Assembly: GCA_947628665.1 (NCBI GenBank)
Contig: CANRAU010000016.1
Location: 1 to 41,215, forward strand
Origin: an uncultured Clostridia bacterium
Lineage (GTDB): Bacteria > Bacillota > Clostridia > Oscillospirales > Acutalibacteraceae
DNA: 41,215 nucleotides
Direction of reading: 5' to 3'
In this document: positions 29,027-35,009 of the stretch, in pieces
Position numbering within the stretch: position 1 is the stretch's first letter
Layout of the letters: every line of letters begins with the position of its first letter
Program-made: the position numbers and the translations under genes
The notes under the pieces: model-generated
What the model was told of the DNA's origin: nothing
Seen by the model: only the letters and a program-made list of their open reading frames with translations
The model's database searches: none

Positions 29027-30745
29027 TCAGACACCGAGACGTTTTTCCATATCGGCGGCGATCTCTTCGGCGCGGGCGGAGGCTTCCGCCTTCGTTTTGC
29101 TCACGGAAGTGATATACACCTTGATTTTGGGCTCTGTACCCGACGGGCGGACGATCACGCAGTCGCCGCTTTCCAGATCATAGCGCAGCACATTGGATTT
29201 CGGCAGGTGGATCTCGGTCTGTGTCCCCGTGTACATATCCTTTGCCACGCTCTCCTGATAGTCGGAGATCGCCGTGACGCGCGCGCCGGCAATCTTTTTC
29301 GGCGCATTTGCCCGCAGAGAGGACATCATATCGTGCATTTTCTGCATACCTGCCGCGCCCTCAAAGCCGAAGTTCAAAAGGGTGCTGAGATACATCCCGT
29401 ATTTTTGATAAATACTCTGCATGAAGTCGTAAAGGCTCATGCCCTTCTGCTTGTAATACGCCGCCATTTCGCAGATGAGCATGGAGGCGACGACCGCATC
29501 CTTATCGCGCGCGTGTGCGCCGCGCAGATAGCCGTAGGACTCCTCGAAGCCGAGAATAAAGCGCTCGGTCTCGCCCTTTTGCTCCAGCTTCGTGACCAGC
29601 TCACCGATGTATTTAAAGCCCGTGAGCAGATCGACGGTCTGCGCGCCGTAGTGCGCGGCGACCTTTGGGATCAGCGGCGAAGACACGATCGTTTTGACGA
29701 CCAGCGGGTCTTTGGGCAACTTCCCCTGTGCCTGCAGGGAGGAAAGCAGGTATTCGGTCAGCATAATGCCGACCTCGTTGCCCGTCATGAGCTTGTATTC
29801 GCCGTCATCGAGTACCGCGATGCCGACGCGGTCGCAGTCGGGGTCGGTCGCCAGCAGCAAATCCGCCTTTTTCGTTTCGCTCAAATGTATGGCGCGCTCA
29901 AAAGCCTGCCGAATTTCGGGATTCGGATACGGGCAGGTCGGGAAATTGCCGTCGGGCAGTTCCTGTTCGGGGACGACGGTCACATCGCGAATACCGATCT
30001 GCCGCAGAATTTCGCGAACGTGCAGATTGCCCGTGCCGTTTAAAGGCGTATAGATCACGGAAAGATCGGACTGCGCGCAAACCTCGGGGTTGACCTGCGC
30101 CTTGCGCACTTCCGCATAAAAGGACGTAAACACGCTGCGGTCAATGTATTCGATGTCCCCCGCCCGCATGGCAGTGTCGAAATCCACCGTTTTGACGTCC
30201 TCAAACATATCCACCTTTTGAATATAGGCATAGGTTTTCGCCGCCGCCTCGTCGGTCATTTGGTAGCCGTTCGGGTCGTAGCATTTGTAGCCGTTGTATT
30301 TGGACGGGTTGTGGCTCGCGGTCAGGATGATCCCCGAGCTGCAATGCAGAACGCGCACCGCGTAAGAAAGCATGGGCGTGGGCACAAGCTCCGGGTACAA
30401 ATAGACCTTGATGCCGTTCGCCGCCAAAACCGACGCCGCCGAACGCGCAAACACATCGGATTTGATGCGGGAATCGTAGGCAATGGCGATGGAAGGGTTC
30501 TCAAACGTCGCGTTCAGATAATCGGAAAGCCCCTGCGTCGCCTGATTGACGGTATATATGTTCATTCGATTCGTGCCCGCGCCGATCACGCCGCGCAGAC
30601 CCGCCGTTCCGAACTCCAGATTTTTATAAAAACGGTCGAGGATCTCCTCCTCATTGCCCTGCACGGATAAAAGCTCCGGCAGTAAATCGGGGTCGTCGGT
30701 CGCTTTTTTACACCAAAGCGCATAAAGCGCATGAATATCATTCAT
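29027..30745 (-). CDS. pgcA: Phosphoglucomutase/phosphomannomutase (phospho-sugar mutase)
   Basis: A 572-residue alpha-D-phosphohexomutase (PgcA-like) interconverting glucose-1-P and glucose-6-P for envelope polysaccharide and glycogen precursors. The active-site serine loop TASHNPSKYNG (about 142-152), the Mg-binding loop DPDCDRVG (about 302-309), the sugar-binding GFEESYGYL (about 397-405) and the phosphate-binding RPSGTEPKIK (about 540-549) are all intact. Strong GGGAGG ribosome site and promoter. The upstream promoter region contains a repeat element (30847-30898) shared with two leaders in the toxin-like island. Confidence 0.95.
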   Translation of the reverse strand: MNDIHALYALWCKKATDDPDLLPELLSVQGNEEEILDRFYKNLEFGTAGLRGVIGAGTNRMNIYTVNQATQGLSDYLNATFENPSIAIAYDSRIKSDVFARSAASVLAANGIKVYLYPELVPTPMLSYAVRVLHCSSGIILTASHNPSKYNGYKCYDPNGYQMTDEAAAKTYAYIQKVDMFEDVKTVDFDTAMRAGDIEYIDRSVFTSFYAEVRKAQVNPEVCAQSDLSVIYTPLNGTGNLHVREILRQIGIRDVTVVPEQELPDGNFPTCPYPNPEIRQAFERAIHLSETKKADLLLATDPDCDRVGIAVLDDGEYKLMTGNEVGIMLTEYLLSSLQAQGKLPKDPLVVKTIVSSPLIPKVAAHYGAQTVDLLTGFKYIGELVTKLEQKGETERFILGFEESYGYLRGAHARDKDAVVASMLICEMAAYYKQKGMSLYDFMQSIYQKYGMYLSTLLNFGFEGAAGMQKMHDMMSSLRANAPKKIAGARVTAISDYQESVAKDMYTGTQTEIHLPKSNVLRYDLESGDCVIVRPSGTEPKIKVYITSVSKTKAEASARAEEIAADMEKRLGV

Positions 30746-30846: not shown

Positions 30847-30898
30847 ATTCCCTAAAAATTGGGTGCGCCCGTTGTGCAGGTTGGCGGAGCAGGCAAAA
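30847..30898 (-). repeat. Promoter-upstream repeat element, copy X (pgcA)
   Basis: Contains CTAAAAATTGG (30852-30862) and a 29-bp block (30870-30898) identical to 33212-33240; 15 bp of it recur at 32142-32156. In all three places it lies just upstream of a minus-strand promoter. Confidence 0.7.
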
Positions 30899-30922
30899 AC
30901 GCTTTCTGCAAATTTAAACTTA

Positions 30923-30965: not shown

Positions 30966-31721
30966 TTATAAAGCGACAAGGCAGAGATTTTCCTTGCTGT
31001 AACATTGCTCAATTTTTTCTGCAAGCTCATGCGGCAAAGGCTTATATTGATTTTGAGAATCCTTTAAATACAAAGTCCCATCTTCATCCCGCACGAGCCA
31101 ATACTGGGTATCGTGGGTCACTGTCAAACCGTCATAGCAAATCTCGTCCGTACTCTTTAATTGAAAAAGAAAATCCCATAAAATGCGTGCGCCGTTATCG
31201 TAGGCGACATATTTTTCTCCCGGTATTTCCTCGGTCTGCACTGCATCGGATAAAAGAATTCCGGCAAATTGGGTGATTTCCTCTTTTGTGAAATTGGGGA
31301 CAAACTTGATCGGGTCTTTATTCGTCAAAGCCTCCGAGATCGTAACTTCGGAAACCATATCCGCCGTTATATCGGACGTAAAGGGCGCATCCTTGCGTAT
31401 ATATAATTTATCGTATGAACTATAGAGAATATCATAGTTATCCCGATACACCCAAAAATCCGCATCTCTTTTTCTTTCCTTTACCTTTGCGGTCAAGGAA
31501 TCAAAATGCCAGTCACTCAAATAAACGCATTCGTAATCACGGATGTTATACGGCAATTCGATTTCCGTACTCGGCAGAATTTGGTTGTATGCCTTTATAT
31601 CCCCCTGAACCAGAAAATCAGATAAAATTGCCATAACAATATAAAATATTAAAATAATCCCAACGATGCACGCGATCAAAATCCCAATGATTTTAAAGGC
31701 TTTTTTAGATCTACTTTCCAT
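30966..31721 (-). CDS. Unknown membrane-anchored protein
   Basis: 251 residues. Basic N-terminus, then one membrane helix (about 10-34: IIGILIACIVGIILIFYIVM), then an extracytoplasmic domain of about 215 residues. No family motif is recognised. The start overlaps the stop of the RHS-like fragment by 11 nt, the classic toxin-tail-then-immunity arrangement of polymorphic toxin loci, so an immunity role is plausible but unproven. Similar anchored proteins follow at 32200 and 33355. AT-rich compared with pgcA and comM. Confidence 0.65.
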   Translation of the reverse strand: MESRSKKAFKIIGILIACIVGIILIFYIVMAILSDFLVQGDIKAYNQILPSTEIELPYNIRDYECVYLSDWHFDSLTAKVKERKRDADFWVYRDNYDILYSSYDKLYIRKDAPFTSDITADMVSEVTISEALTNKDPIKFVPNFTKEEITQFAGILLSDAVQTEEIPGEKYVAYDNGARILWDFLFQLKSTDEICYDGLTVTHDTQYWLVRDEDGTLYLKDSQNQYKPLPHELAEKIEQCYSKENLCLVAL

Positions 31722-31929
31722 AATACATCAACCAGTTCTCCCATTCAGTATCATATTCATGCGTGATATTGCCGTTAGCATCGTAGCTGTAGGCAAACCC
31801 GTATTCGCCCTTTGTTTCGCCCTGCAAAATGCTCGTGCCGTAGCTTAAGCGCGTGCGCATGGTATCCACACGCCCCTGCGCGACCGTCTCGCCGCCGTCT
31901 TCACCCGTTAAGAAGGTATAATCCGTCAC
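31711..31929 (-). pseudogene. RHS/YD-repeat protein C-terminal fragment
   Basis: A 72-codon open frame from GTG with a diagnostic YD-repeat motif (YSYDANGNITHEYD, about 47-60) preceded by RLSYGT. It ends at WLMYYGK, 11 nt into the next gene. The frame closes upstream at a TGA (about 31942-31944), so the large N-terminal RHS body is gone. Composition is GC-richer than its surroundings. Interpreted as the tail of a lost RHS-family polymorphic toxin or its repeat barrel. Confidence 0.7.
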
Positions 31930-31969
31930 AGCCGCCGCGAAAGGTCAGAAAATGCAGAGAAACCGCACA

Positions 31970-32078
31970 ACAGAGAAATCCGCACTGTGCCGTAATGGTA
32001 CAGTGCGGATTGTTTGTTGCAAAAACTTCCCTTGAATCAGACTTTTCTATGCCGCACACTCCGCAAGTACCCTACAGG
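31970..32078 (-). ncRNA. Candidate leader/small RNA, copy Y
   Basis: Transcribed on the minus strand from the promoter at 32110-32082, about 105 nt, ending in a 14-bp terminator hairpin (31978-31991 with 31997-32010, 5-nt loop) then TTTCTCTGTT. Only three differences from copy Z over about 130 nt. A GUGCGG segment (32052-32057) can pair with CCGCAC in the 5' arm of the terminator, a possible antiterminator. Confidence 0.55.
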
Positions 32079-32081
32079 CTC

Positions 32082-32110
32082 ATTGTAGCAAACAGCAAAT
32101 ATCTTGTCAA
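32082..32110 (-). promoter_or_regulatory. Promoter of leader Y with inverted repeat at -35
   Basis: Minus strand TTGACA (32110-32105), 17-nt spacer, TACAAT (32087-32082). CTTGTC-N5-GACAAG (32103-32119) overlaps the -35 box, an operator-like palindrome; one mismatch in copy Z. Confidence 0.8.
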
Positions 32111-32118
32111 TTCGACAA

Positions 32119-32156
32119 GTTCGCTAAAAATTGGAAATGCACGTTGTGCAGGTTGG
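32119..32156 (-). repeat. Promoter-upstream repeat element, copy Y
   Basis: CTAAAAATTGG (32124-32134) and a 15-bp block (32142-32156) shared with copies X and Z, 14 bp from the -35 box of leader Y. Confidence 0.65.
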
Positions 32157-32199
32157 TCGCACATTTTTCGGAGAGAGGCTCAAACGAAATGTGTATCCA

Positions 32200-32850
32200 T
32201 TATAACAGCGGCTTGCTTTTCTGCCGTATAAGTAAAATTGCAACAATACATACCGCTGTCAAAGCTAATGCAACTATACATGCAAATACTATTCTATAGG
32301 CATTGACAGTATATACGGTTAATACCTCATTGTTTGAAATCTCCAACTTGGTAAAGTCCTTAAACATCCTATTTTTTACTTGGAAATCATTGGATAAATT
32401 CCGTATATTGCCCTGCGCGTCCACAAAAGCTAATTTACATTTTCCCCTTTTGGCAAGATAATCAAGTAAGTCCTGATTCTCTCCGTAATAAACCGAAACG
32501 GTGTCACTATATTCATCGGTATAAACAGATATGGTGCTATCTTTAAAATGAAACAGATAGCTGTAATACGCCTCATCATAATTTGCAATTTCACTTGTGT
32601 TTTCTATTTTTATAACGGAATGATCGGAAATGTCAATCAAGCTTTCACTTTCCTCTTTTTGCGGAACATATGCCTGATCGTCCGCCTGAACAGGCACAAG
32701 CAAATCAATATATGATGTGCCTTGCGGTATTTCACTTCGATTCACATCAACACTCAAAAAAGACGACGGTTTATATGCATATACAGGAATATTTACTATG
32801 CAAAACAGCAGCAGCAAAATGTTGTAAAAGCAAATTATCCGTTTTCGCAT
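32200..32850 (-). CDS. Unknown secreted/membrane protein with signal peptide and C-terminal anchor
   Basis: 216 residues from an ATG with AAGGAGG 9 nt upstream. N-terminal signal peptide (RKRIICFYNILLLLFCIVN, cleavage possibly after VYAYK), an extracytoplasmic domain, and one C-terminal membrane helix (about 185-207: IVFACIVALALTAVCIVAIL) followed by RQKSKPLL, i.e. a type-I membrane protein. No family recognised. It follows an orphan C-terminal fragment (32865-32990) and the Z leader. Probably a member of the toxin/immunity-like array. Confidence 0.68.
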   Translation of the reverse strand: MRKRIICFYNILLLLFCIVNIPVYAYKPSSFLSVDVNRSEIPQGTSYIDLLVPVQADDQAYVPQKEESESLIDISDHSVIKIENTSEIANYDEAYYSYLFHFKDSTISVYTDEYSDTVSVYYGENQDLLDYLAKRGKCKLAFVDAQGNIRNLSNDFQVKNRMFKDFTKLEISNNEVLTVYTVNAYRIVFACIVALALTAVCIVAILLIRQKSKPLL

Positions 32851-32864
32851 GAGCCAGTTCCTCC

Positions 32865-32990
32865 TTACCATATCCAATATCCAACAATCATTTTAAATCC
32901 ATCTTCTTTGACGAGTTGAGATATAGACGATACAATATGTACTGATTGGGAGTTATTGTATCTATTGTTAAATTGGTGTAATTCGATCAC
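32865..32990 (-). pseudogene. Orphan C-terminal protein fragment (41 codons)
   Basis: An open frame ending ...MIVGYWIW-stop, directly followed by GGAGG and the ATG of the next gene. It has no start of its own and joins the Z repeat at its 5' end. It looks like the tail of a lost toxin-like gene retained upstream of its partner, as at 33987-34005. Confidence 0.4.
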
Positions 32991-33039
32991 ACAGCTACCG
33001 CGAAAGACTGGAGATTGCAAAGCGCAGGAGAACTGCACA

Positions 33040-33148
33040 ACAGAGAAATCCGCACTGTGCCGTAATGGTACAGTGCGGATTGTTTGTTGCAGAAACTTCC
33101 CTTAAATCAGACTTTTCTATGCCGCACACTCCGCAAGTACCCTACAGG
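33040..33148 (-). ncRNA. Candidate leader/small RNA, copy Z
   Basis: Counterpart of copy Y: same promoter layout (33180-33152), same ~105-nt transcribed part and the same 14-bp terminator hairpin (33048-33080). The body differs at three positions while the promoter spacer is largely different, pointing to selection on the RNA. It precedes the orphan tail and the gene at 32200-32850. Confidence 0.55.
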
Positions 33149-33151
33149 CTC

Positions 33152-33180
33152 ATTGTAGCAAAAGAAGTATTGCTCGTCAA
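33152..33180 (-). promoter_or_regulatory. Promoter of leader Z
   Basis: Minus strand TTGACG (33180-33175), 17-nt spacer, TACAAT (33157-33152). Confidence 0.75.
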
Positions 33181-33189
33181 TTCGACAAG

Positions 33190-33240
33190 TTTCCTAAATT
33201 TTGGATATGCGCGTTGTGCAGGTTGGCGGAGCAGGCAAAA
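33190..33240 (-). repeat. Promoter-upstream repeat element, copy Z
   Basis: Diverged CTAAATTTTGG (33194-33204) and a 29-bp block (33212-33240) identical to copy X in front of pgcA. Confidence 0.65.
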
Positions 33241-33246
33241 GCGCTT

Positions 33247-33292
33247 GATAAAAAGAATCCTGCCTGCGCGAAATGCGCAGGCAGGATTCTTT
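33247..33292 (-). terminator. Strong terminator of the 33355-33993 gene
   Basis: A 17-bp perfect stem (33253-33269 with 33275-33291), 5-nt loop, followed on the minus strand by TTTATC. Confidence 0.85.
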
Positions 33293-33354
33293 AGCCGAGA
33301 ATGTTCAAGCTTGGGTATTTGCGGCGTATGGGTTTCGACTCTCCTCGCTATGTT

Positions 33355-33993
33355 TTAAGTGCTTTCAAACAAGCCTGTGTTGCATGTGTAAACCGCCTCG
33401 TTGTTTTGATTGTAGCCGACCATGCTTTCCAATCGTAAATTTCCGCGCATTTCGGGTACACAGCAAACAAACGGCGCATTCGGATCGCAGGAAAACCGGT
33501 GGGTCTCCTGTGGCCCTGCAAACGTATTGAAAACGCACACCATTTGGCTGATCTGCAAATCATTTTGGCTGTAAAAATACCAGTCTATCGGCTCTTTTTG
33601 GGAATCACTCGGCGCAAGTGTGGAGAAAAACCCGACTTTTTCCATGACCGAGGCGTTATGCTTCAAGACGATATATCGCTGTACATTTAAACAATGCAAC
33701 CAAGGCCGATTTTGCAGCAAATACATTTCCTGTATGCCGTCTGCATTTTGTGTGGACAGATACGCAACACAATCGTGATCTTCCGCAGTGGTATTGCTTA
33801 TTTTCTCCAGTTTGGACGCTTTTGCGTACGGATATGCCAAACACTGGCTCAAAGTTTGCGTATCCCGAATAAAAACAGCTGTGTATGTGAAAAAGGATAT
33901 AAGAATAATTCCAATGTAGATAAATCCAACAACATACTTCCTATTAAAATGCGGCACTTTCGATAAAATATTTTTAGAAATGAAATGTGACAT
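33355..33993 (-). CDS. Unknown membrane-anchored protein
   Basis: 212 residues from the ATG (MSHFISKNILSK) that has GGGAG 10 nt upstream; the frame extends to 34050 but that overlaps the upstream gene. One N-terminal membrane helix (about 22-44: VVGFIYIGIILISFFTYTAVF), remaining ~165 residues extracytoplasmic. No motif recognised. The start codon lies inside a duplicated copy of the end of the upstream gene. Likely part of the same array as 30966 and 32200. Confidence 0.62.
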   Translation of the reverse strand: MSHFISKNILSKVPHFNRKYVVGFIYIGIILISFFTYTAVFIRDTQTLSQCLAYPYAKASKLEKISNTTAEDHDCVAYLSTQNADGIQEMYLLQNRPWLHCLNVQRYIVLKHNASVMEKVGFFSTLAPSDSQKEPIDWYFYSQNDLQISQMVCVFNTFAGPQETHRFSCDPNAPFVCCVPEMRGNLRLESMVGYNQNNEAVYTCNTGLFEST

Positions 33994-34045
33994 AACTGTA
34001 TAACTCCCTATGCTTAAAAGTTGAACGTGACATAACTGTATAACT
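33987..34045 (-). repeat. 19-bp direct repeat from a duplicated gene end
   Basis: 33987-34005 and 34027-34045 are identical. The right copy encodes YSYVTF at the end of the secreted protein; in the same frame the left copy also reads SYVTFHF-stop. So a paralogue's last codons remain upstream of, and overlap, the next gene's start. Confidence 0.7.
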
Positions 34046-35009
34046 GCCAACTTTTCTCGGAAATACTCGGTGTAATTTCTAATAAAGCCTCTTTATTAGA
34101 GTGTAGCGAAACAGATACACTTATATCCATGTCTTTCCATGTATGTACATAATAGCTGTTAATCGTTCTTAAGCCGCCTGAACTGGAACTCTGTGTTGTA
34201 CTTAGCAGACACATAGCCAACCGACTAAGTCCCAAAGGATCATCTTTCATTTTTACCTTAAGATATGTATTTCCTCCATCCGAAATAGTATATTCTTTTC
34301 CCTCCACTCCAGTATATACACCACTTGTTAAATCGGGATTGTTGCTTGTGTTGTATATACTGGTAAAACTATGTTTCAATCTTGAAAAACTATCAGGTAC
34401 TGATTGTAACAAATAATCATAACCTGAAGCAGGATATTTAGATCCTCCAATCCAAGAACCTTTTTCCCATGTTGCCCATGAAGTAGCAATATATGTACCA
34501 TCCGTTTGCTTGGAAATCATTGTAAAAAATGAAAAGTTCTGTTCTGCTTCATACGCAATATCCCCTTCCTCAGTTTGTACTGCGTTTGCAATTGGGAAAA
34601 ATGCAGATAATACGCGCATCAAAATCGTTGGTTTTGATTTCTTTAATACTCTTTCGGAATGATCCTTGTAAATGCGAATTGGAGCTTCTGTGTAAGCAAT
34701 GGCACAAACTTCCTCTCCCTTTTGCAAGGTTTGAAAAATAACTGATTCAACCTCAGGGTATTTTTCTAAAATAGCGGACAGTTTCTGTTGTTCTCTACCG
34801 CCTAAATACTTACATATAACATTATCATCCTTAACTTGTAAAGACAATTCTTCATTATTTGTATTTAACTCTATATGTTTTATATTGATTTGCTCGTGTG
34901 TTTCTTCATAAATGCTATCATTGTCCGTAGCACTGACATAAAAGTTACACATGGTCAGCATAAGAACAATTATTAATAATAACGCTGCACTTCTTTTTAC
35001 TTTTTTCAT
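34014..35009 (-). CDS. Secreted protein of unknown function
   Basis: 331 residues. A clear signal peptide (KKVKRSAALLLIIVLMLTM, cleavage probably after YVSA at about 28). The mature part is Ser/Thr/Tyr-rich, mostly beta. The C-terminal half (WATWEKGSWIGGSKYPASGYDYLLQ, HTWKDMDISVSVSL) resembles no family I can name with certainty. No lipobox, catalytic motif or sortase signal. GGAGGG ribosome site. It is the first gene of the array and has its own consensus promoter, divergent from comM. Confidence 0.72.
   Translation of the reverse strand: MKKVKRSAALLLIIVLMLTMCNFYVSATDNDSIYEETHEQINIKHIELNTNNEELSLQVKDDNVICKYLGGREQQKLSAILEKYPEVESVIFQTLQKGEEVCAIAYTEAPIRIYKDHSERVLKKSKPTILMRVLSAFFPIANAVQTEEGDIAYEAEQNFSFFTMISKQTDGTYIATSWATWEKGSWIGGSKYPASGYDYLLQSVPDSFSRLKHSFTSIYNTSNNPDLTSGVYTGVEGKEYTISDGGNTYLKVKMKDDPLGLSRLAMCLLSTTQSSSSGGLRTINSYYVHTWKDMDISVSVSLHSNKEALLEITPSISEKSWQLYSYVTFNF

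Follow-up and report, generated by a model that had tools for sequence, protein, structure and literature searches.

We identified two nearly identical modules, m1 (32110-31970) and m2 (33180-33040), on the minus strand of the window (41,215 nt, contig C16 of a 2.0-Mb genome), spaced 1070 nt apart and each made up, in this order, of a flank of about 46 nt, a sigma-70-type promoter with an extended -10, a leader, and a strong hairpin. The likeliest reading of these modules, and not a proven one, is that each joins a promoter to a transcription attenuator that controls the immunity-like gene downstream, the antiterminator being the 5′ end of the RNA itself; we would give this an even chance. The architecture is evident from the sequence: the two minus-strand promoter-leader-hairpin modules of the initial annotation were found again at their positions, with support from a promoter scan. 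Their parts are as follows.

32111-32156, minus strand: conserved upstream flank of m1, CCAACCTGCACAAC... TTGTCGAA, identical to the m2 flank at 40 of 46 positions
32082-32110, minus strand: m1 promoter, TTGACA-17-TACAAT with extended -10 (11/12 in the promoter scan)
32060-32075, minus strand: m1 transcript from +1 to +16, putative antiterminator 5′ strand GUAGGGUACUUGCGGA (start predicted from the -10 only)
32012-32059, minus strand: m1 mid-leader, body type A (90-96% identical to two other type-A copies, 41-54% to five non-A copies)
31977-32011, minus strand: m1 terminator-like hairpin (dG -21.6), whose 5′ arm and loop form the putative antiterminator 3′ strand (by pairing counts)
33181-33226, minus strand: conserved upstream flank of m2 (by comparison with the m1 flank)
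33152-33180, minus strand: m2 promoter, TTGACG-17-TACAAT with extended -10 (10/12 in the promoter scan)
33130-33145, minus strand: m2 transcript from +1 to +16, putative antiterminator 5′ strand (start predicted)
33082-33129, minus strand: m2 mid-leader, body type A (by region-wise identity comparison)
33047-33081, minus strand: m2 terminator-like hairpin, identical to that of m1 at 35 of 35 positions

Both promoters carry a TG ahead of the -10, and the predicted transcripts are about 99-100 nt long. Since the promoter scan of the region found 18 promoter-like sites versus 13.1 in shuffles, a single hit means little; that the likeness of m1 and m2 is not due to chance follows from the related copies that BLASTN with m1 turned up outside the window, in other species as well as on a second contig of this genome.

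The hairpin of m1 and m2 consists of 12 pairs, then an A.C mismatch, then 2 pairs, and we infer that it terminates transcription. The U-run behind it is poor (UUUCUCUGUU), and the copies on the second contig (C24) are almost without one. A simple terminator scan left both hairpins unflagged on the minus strand and flagged them on the plus strand instead; in the region it found 4 terminators versus 4.2 in shuffles. Directly upstream of m2 (about 33253-33295, minus strand) we observed by eye a long perfect hairpin with a T-run, also unflagged by the scan, which is perhaps the terminator of the ORF at 33355-34050. Further upstream, a 40-nt tandem duplication (33969-34048, 80%; GTGACATAACTGTATAACT in both copies) lies at the end of the ORF at 34014-35009.

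The identity between m1 and m2 is uneven along the repeat, which as a whole (208 nt, 89%) takes in the flank of about 46 nt that the initial annotation had omitted. The -35 hexamers agree at 5 of 6 positions, the -10 hexamers and the stretch from -6 to -1 at 6 of 6 each, the region from +1 to the hairpin at 62 of 64, and the 16 nt behind the hairpin at 15 of 16; from -6 onward there are three differences over 121 nt, in agreement with the three that had been counted over the transcribed part. The 17-nt spacers share only 9 positions. They had been called largely different, which is right for their first 12 nt (4 identical, 8 different) and wrong for their last bases, TTTGC, which belong to the extended -10 and are conserved between m1 and m2.

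Copies were searched by BLASTN over 98 genomes and by a covariance model, built from eight copies, over the 39 genomes of the genus. This search of relatives, which had been suggested along with the model, yielded eight full copies, all within four of the 39 genomes: m1 and m2; L014a and L014b (contig C24, same genome); L015b and L016 (G038); L017 (G002); and L018 (G001). They score between 99.9 and 151.4 bits, which is high by construction, since these eight copies built the model. The flank's 17-nt core recurs with at most one mismatch in six of the seven other full copies (not in L018), and in a promoter-only copy in G038 (38.1 bits, seen by BLASTN too). The likeness in this promoter-only copy (L015 9648-9778) ends at about +5, and the MLSKLMYF gene follows immediately, with neither leader nor module hairpin; judging by its sequence, it is a natural leader-less version. 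A diverged copy on contig C8 of G000 (L086 4645-4830; 36.7 bits) shows the same order of parts and a 17-nt spacer, the spacer length of all nine copies; the top of its hairpin reads GUACCCC/GGGUAC, and an ORF without a Pfam match lies behind it.

With model R1, run over 398 genomes of the family under stricter filters and with at most eight candidates scored per genome, at least 135 genomes had matches at E up to 0.1; among the matches listed, G038 is absent, and the best one outside the known copies and the window's genome reached 33.1 bits. Places in G099 and G435, and a weak second place in G002, were inspected and none is a module; a leader-like match in G040, by eye without such a promoter or hairpin, was treated as chance. 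In a collection of genome contigs, an exact-pattern scan for the hairpin found nothing, and a promoter-plus-leader pattern matched nine stretches, four of them (L020, L021, L024, L028) on contigs of known relatives; in the other five (L022, L023, L025, L026, L027) the rest of the module was not seen on reading, and they were taken as chance. The promoter-leader pattern had no match in viral contigs, nor had m1 by BLASTN in the phage and plasmid collections. In agreement with the initial annotation, which matched the modules to no known RNA family, the Rfam scan of the whole window at gathering scores had no match for them, and the eight matches of m1 down to E 10 were all far below gathering scores. 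Our searches found this small module family in a single genus of uncultured Clostridia, and both the evidence and its reach are limited accordingly.

Three body types can be told apart among the full copies: A (m1, m2, L016), B (L015b, L017, L018), and C (L014a, L014b). We compared identity by region (first 12 spacer nt, +1 to +16, middle, and hairpin) for all 28 pairs of the eight full copies, C8 being left out, in gapped alignment. Within types, six of the seven pairs have spacers that are 50-67% identical, versus 81-100% for the start, 80-96% for the middle, and 74-100% for the hairpin; the exception is L014a/L014b, with identical spacers and a hairpin at 84%. The type-A middle is shared at 43 of 48 positions between m1 or m2 and L016, which come from different species. 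Between types (21 pairs), spacer and middle fall to 33-58% and 39-54%, and the first 16 nt and the hairpin stand at 69-94% and 55-80%; across types the spacer and middle look unconstrained, and the parts that remain alike are the two putative pairing partners. Because the spacers diverge more than the start and the hairpin, in six of seven within-type pairs and between types, the RNA is very probably under selection. Selection on the RNA beyond recent copying had been proposed from m1 and m2, and the further copies bear it out, with one contrary pair, the C24 copies with their identical spacers; uniform divergence of promoter and body, named there as the contrary outcome, was looked for in these copies and not seen outside L014a/L014b.

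The conserved parts offer two folds. Besides the hairpin, an alternative pairing of the extreme 5′ end of the RNA (GGUACUUGCGG) with the 5′ arm and loop of the terminator is available in all eight full copies. The initial annotation had considered an attenuator possible through pairing of GUGCGG with CCGCAC; an attenuator remains plausible, but the pair that it named occurs in type A only (3/8), and in folding models the pairing that starts at +1, present in 8/8, is much better. Folded from -4, the RNA of m2 has its optimum (-37.7) in a structure that pairs a long stretch at the 5′ end with the terminator 5′ arm and loop; in m1 the optimum is the terminator fold (-36.3), and the 5′-end pairing is the centroid (-35.2). 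We compared the energies of the two folds from +1 for the eight copies, C8 left out: the terminator fold leads by 2.1-3.0 kcal/mol in m1 (-33.6/-31.3), m2 (-35.7/-32.7), L017 (-24.5/-22.4), and L018 (-26.7/-23.7), and by 8.4-10.8 kcal/mol in L014a, L014b, L015b, and L016. If the RNA is folded only up to just before the 3′ arm, the first 24 nt pair with arm and loop in all eight (10-16 pairs; 9 in the diverged copy).

Counted over 15 pairs in eight of the nine copies (C8 left out; L014 and L018 aligned by hand), standard pairs fill 99 of 117 cells, versus 25-57% when the strands are slid, and 18 of 117 are broken. Of the 15 pairs, six are invariant across the copies and two show compensatory change (G-C to A-U; A-U to G-C). 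One invariant A of the arm (column 125) faces a leader U in 8/8 and is unpaired in the predicted hairpin in 7/8, so the terminator alone does not explain this base. Shuffle tests gave mixed support. With shuffled leader starts, four of the nine copies passed for duplex energy at 0.05 (m1, m2, L014a, L018), four for expected pairs (m1, m2, L014a, L014b), and four for fold energy (m1, m2, L014a, L017); with whole leaders shuffled, three passed (m1, m2, L014a). L015b, L016, and C8 pass none of these tests, and m1 and m2 are hardly independent. By composition, a G-rich start and a C-rich arm would pair fairly well anyway. In a leader-by-arm matrix, leaders pair with the arms of other copies as well as with their own, which gives no sign of cis-specific co-evolution.

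In all eight full copies the hairpin sits between the promoter and a same-strand gene, whose ORF begins about 40 to 330 nt past the hairpin. Seven of the products are 181-316 aa long and the eighth has 651 aa; by eye, most begin with a hydrophobic stretch. Behind m2 and m1 we find:

32200-32850, minus strand: ORF behind m2, start codon ATG at 32850, product of 216 aa that by eye resembles a membrane protein; no family match above curated cut-off
30966-31721, minus strand: ORF behind m1, 251 aa, membrane-protein-like by eye; no family match above curated cut-off
31711-31929, minus strand: YD/Rhs-like frame of 72 aa between m1 and its ORF (BLASTP to the C24 Rhs protein, best E 3e-4 in a single comparison)

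The eight genes have no BLASTP match to one another at 1e-4 (31 array proteins compared), and none of the proteins directly behind a module has a Pfam match above cut-off; the matches elsewhere in the arrays (an ABC ATPase, an Rhs protein, and a DUF5071 protein) are all to proteins in other places than directly behind a module. The longest product, of 651 aa behind L015b, weakly resembles a family of bacteriocin-associated integral membrane proteins, with a score below cut-off. Other array genes are found again in further species; the gene behind L016 in G038, for example, has a 55% relative in G001, there without a module directly before it. An 890-aa Rhs protein is encoded past the second C24 module, at a distance of about 3.7 kb; the 72-aa frame, which had no Pfam or NCBIfam match at E 0.01, is by its sequence probably a remnant; and no Rhs gene is among the ORFs listed for L015b, L017, and L018. 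The initial annotation had placed each module upstream of a toxin/immunity-like gene. An Rhs gene or remnant near four of the eight copies adds to this; the immunity part we infer from the setting, in which the arrays would be made up of orphan immunity genes.

Similar gene-end sequences (about TTEKPDK.D..YFV in L014 and L016) lie before modules or elsewhere in the arrays (L014 2504-2560, L015 9536-9609 and 15046-15107, L016 9498-9555), as the end of an ORF in L014 and as apparent remnants at the other sites (frames read by eye); their recurrence is a sign of cassette recombination. In L014 2609-3664 (L014b) and L018 8679-9725, the reading frame of the gene is open upstream as far as the leader, so that part of the leader could be translated. 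Frames also cross the type-A leader (ORF 31901-32059) and both C24 copies. We saw no shared leader peptide across copies by eye; going by the frames, part of the leader may be translated. A third, partial copy of the flank (30848-30904, minus strand; 86% identical to the m2 flank over 57 nt) lacks the module promoter and leader and sits just upstream of the ORF at 29027-30745, whose product we take to be sugar-phosphate mutase-like.

We propose that transcription would start just behind the -10, and that the first 16 or so nt (GUAGGGUACUUGCGGA) are nearly complementary to the terminator 5′ arm and loop, which follow about 65 nt later. The 5′ end would hold arm and loop as an antiterminator before the 3′ arm exists, and the polymerase would then read into the gene; if the 5′ end were taken up or displaced, the terminator would form and only the RNA of about 100 nt would be made. 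The whole cassette would have been copied and swapped among different array genes.

Three other explanations bear on the same evidence. The terminated product of about 100 nt might be a free-standing small RNA that acts in trans, be it on genes of the arrays or on other targets, with the gene behind as a neighbor or as a recipient of leak-through. A strong promoter with a strong hairpin and a type-A middle conserved between species would fit this, and near-identical copies would feed one RNA pool; in addition, a weak promoter-like site (9/12) lies between m2 and its gene, at 32982-32955. However, the downstream-promoter scan, which covered m1, m2, and the C24 copies, listed no promoter-like site on the stretch from the m1 hairpin to its gene (minus strand) or on those from the C24 hairpins to theirs (plus strand); the two pairing partners are all that different body types share, and the promoter-only copy in G038 leads straight into a gene. 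We consider a small RNA rather unlikely. We also regard it as unlikely that the modules are a fixed throttle, in which a strong promoter and a leaky terminator set a low constant protein level and the leader start is conserved for its part in promoter escape or RNA stability. Rfam found no known ligand-binding element, the U-runs are weak, and the terminator fold is favored by 8-11 kcal/mol in half of the copies (4/8), all of which would suit a throttle; yet it leaves unexplained the invariant arm base that matches the RNA start and is unpaired in seven of eight hairpins.

Very unlikely, in our judgment, is a recombination scar, that is, a homologous block through which array cassettes recombine, its likeness due to copying or gene conversion and not to RNA function. 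The gene-end sequences beside several modules, the flank copied without a module at 30848-30904, and the identical spacers of the C24 pair point that way, and in T7SS immunity arrays, according to PMC9484751, homology blocks drive recombination. Copying of this kind does not account for a diverged spacer between conserved blocks in six of seven within-type pairs, nor for the 17-nt spacing in 9/9.

The attenuator that we favor resembles several known systems in part. In T-box leaders, antiterminator and terminator compete, and the modules would share such competing folds but differ in that the leader of m1 and m2 before the hairpin has 64 nt; Rfam T-box models had no match (window at gathering scores; m1 to E 10). 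In pyrG attenuation, G's added to the transcript by reiterative transcription pair with the 5′ strand of the terminator. The likeness would lie in a transcript 5′ end that serves as antiattenuation element, and the difference in that the modules encode the complementary 5′ end. For the Bacillus subtilis gene, PMC4448216 states that the transcript 5′ end prevents attenuation. As for a G-run on which the polymerase could slip, six of the eight copies have a predicted start with 3-4 G from +3 or +4 (GUAGGG, GUGGGG, GAGGGG, ACAGGG), and the predicted start of the other two is GCGGAU; none of the eight genes behind modules has a Pfam match to CTP synthase, the pyrG-type context.

As outlined in PMC12373285, the AbiF-associated RNA RCd22 of Clostridioides difficile has a SigA-type promoter, an RNA of about 100-130 nt, and a Rho-independent terminator, with the gene co-transcribed by read-through. 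Modules and abiF RNA (RF03085) are alike in their promoter, RNA of similar length, terminator (a putative one in the modules), and then gene; but the genes behind the modules are mutually unrelated and not one toxin. The abiF RNA had no match in the window at gathering score, nor was it among the eight matches of m1 to E 10, and an AbiF-type protein was found neither by Pfam for any of the eight genes nor by PADLOC for the seven of eight covered. ToxIN-like type III toxin-antitoxin loci, as presented in the same source (PMC12373285), likewise lead from a promoter through an RNA and a terminator to a protein gene, but the modules have no internal tandem repeat (repeat list) and no shared toxin. 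The T7SS immunity arrays (esaG, tipC) are described in PMC9484751 as strings of immunity paralogues that recombine through homology blocks; here, in contrast, it is a promoter-leader that the loci share, and their genes belong to different families. No description of attenuators ahead of such genes was found in the open-access literature searched (titles and abstract starts).

On this basis, we tentatively suggest, at somewhat less than an even chance, that the modules represent undescribed, genus-restricted attenuators whose antiterminator is formed by the first bases of the transcript, and that they act as an interchangeable cassette that places unrelated orphan immunity genes under one common signal. 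To our knowledge, little is known about how bacteria avoid the full cost of the many immunity genes that they maintain. The module is short and nearly constant, which would make a reporter test easy; and if one conditional stop signal serves many immunity genes, one cue could switch on a whole repertoire.
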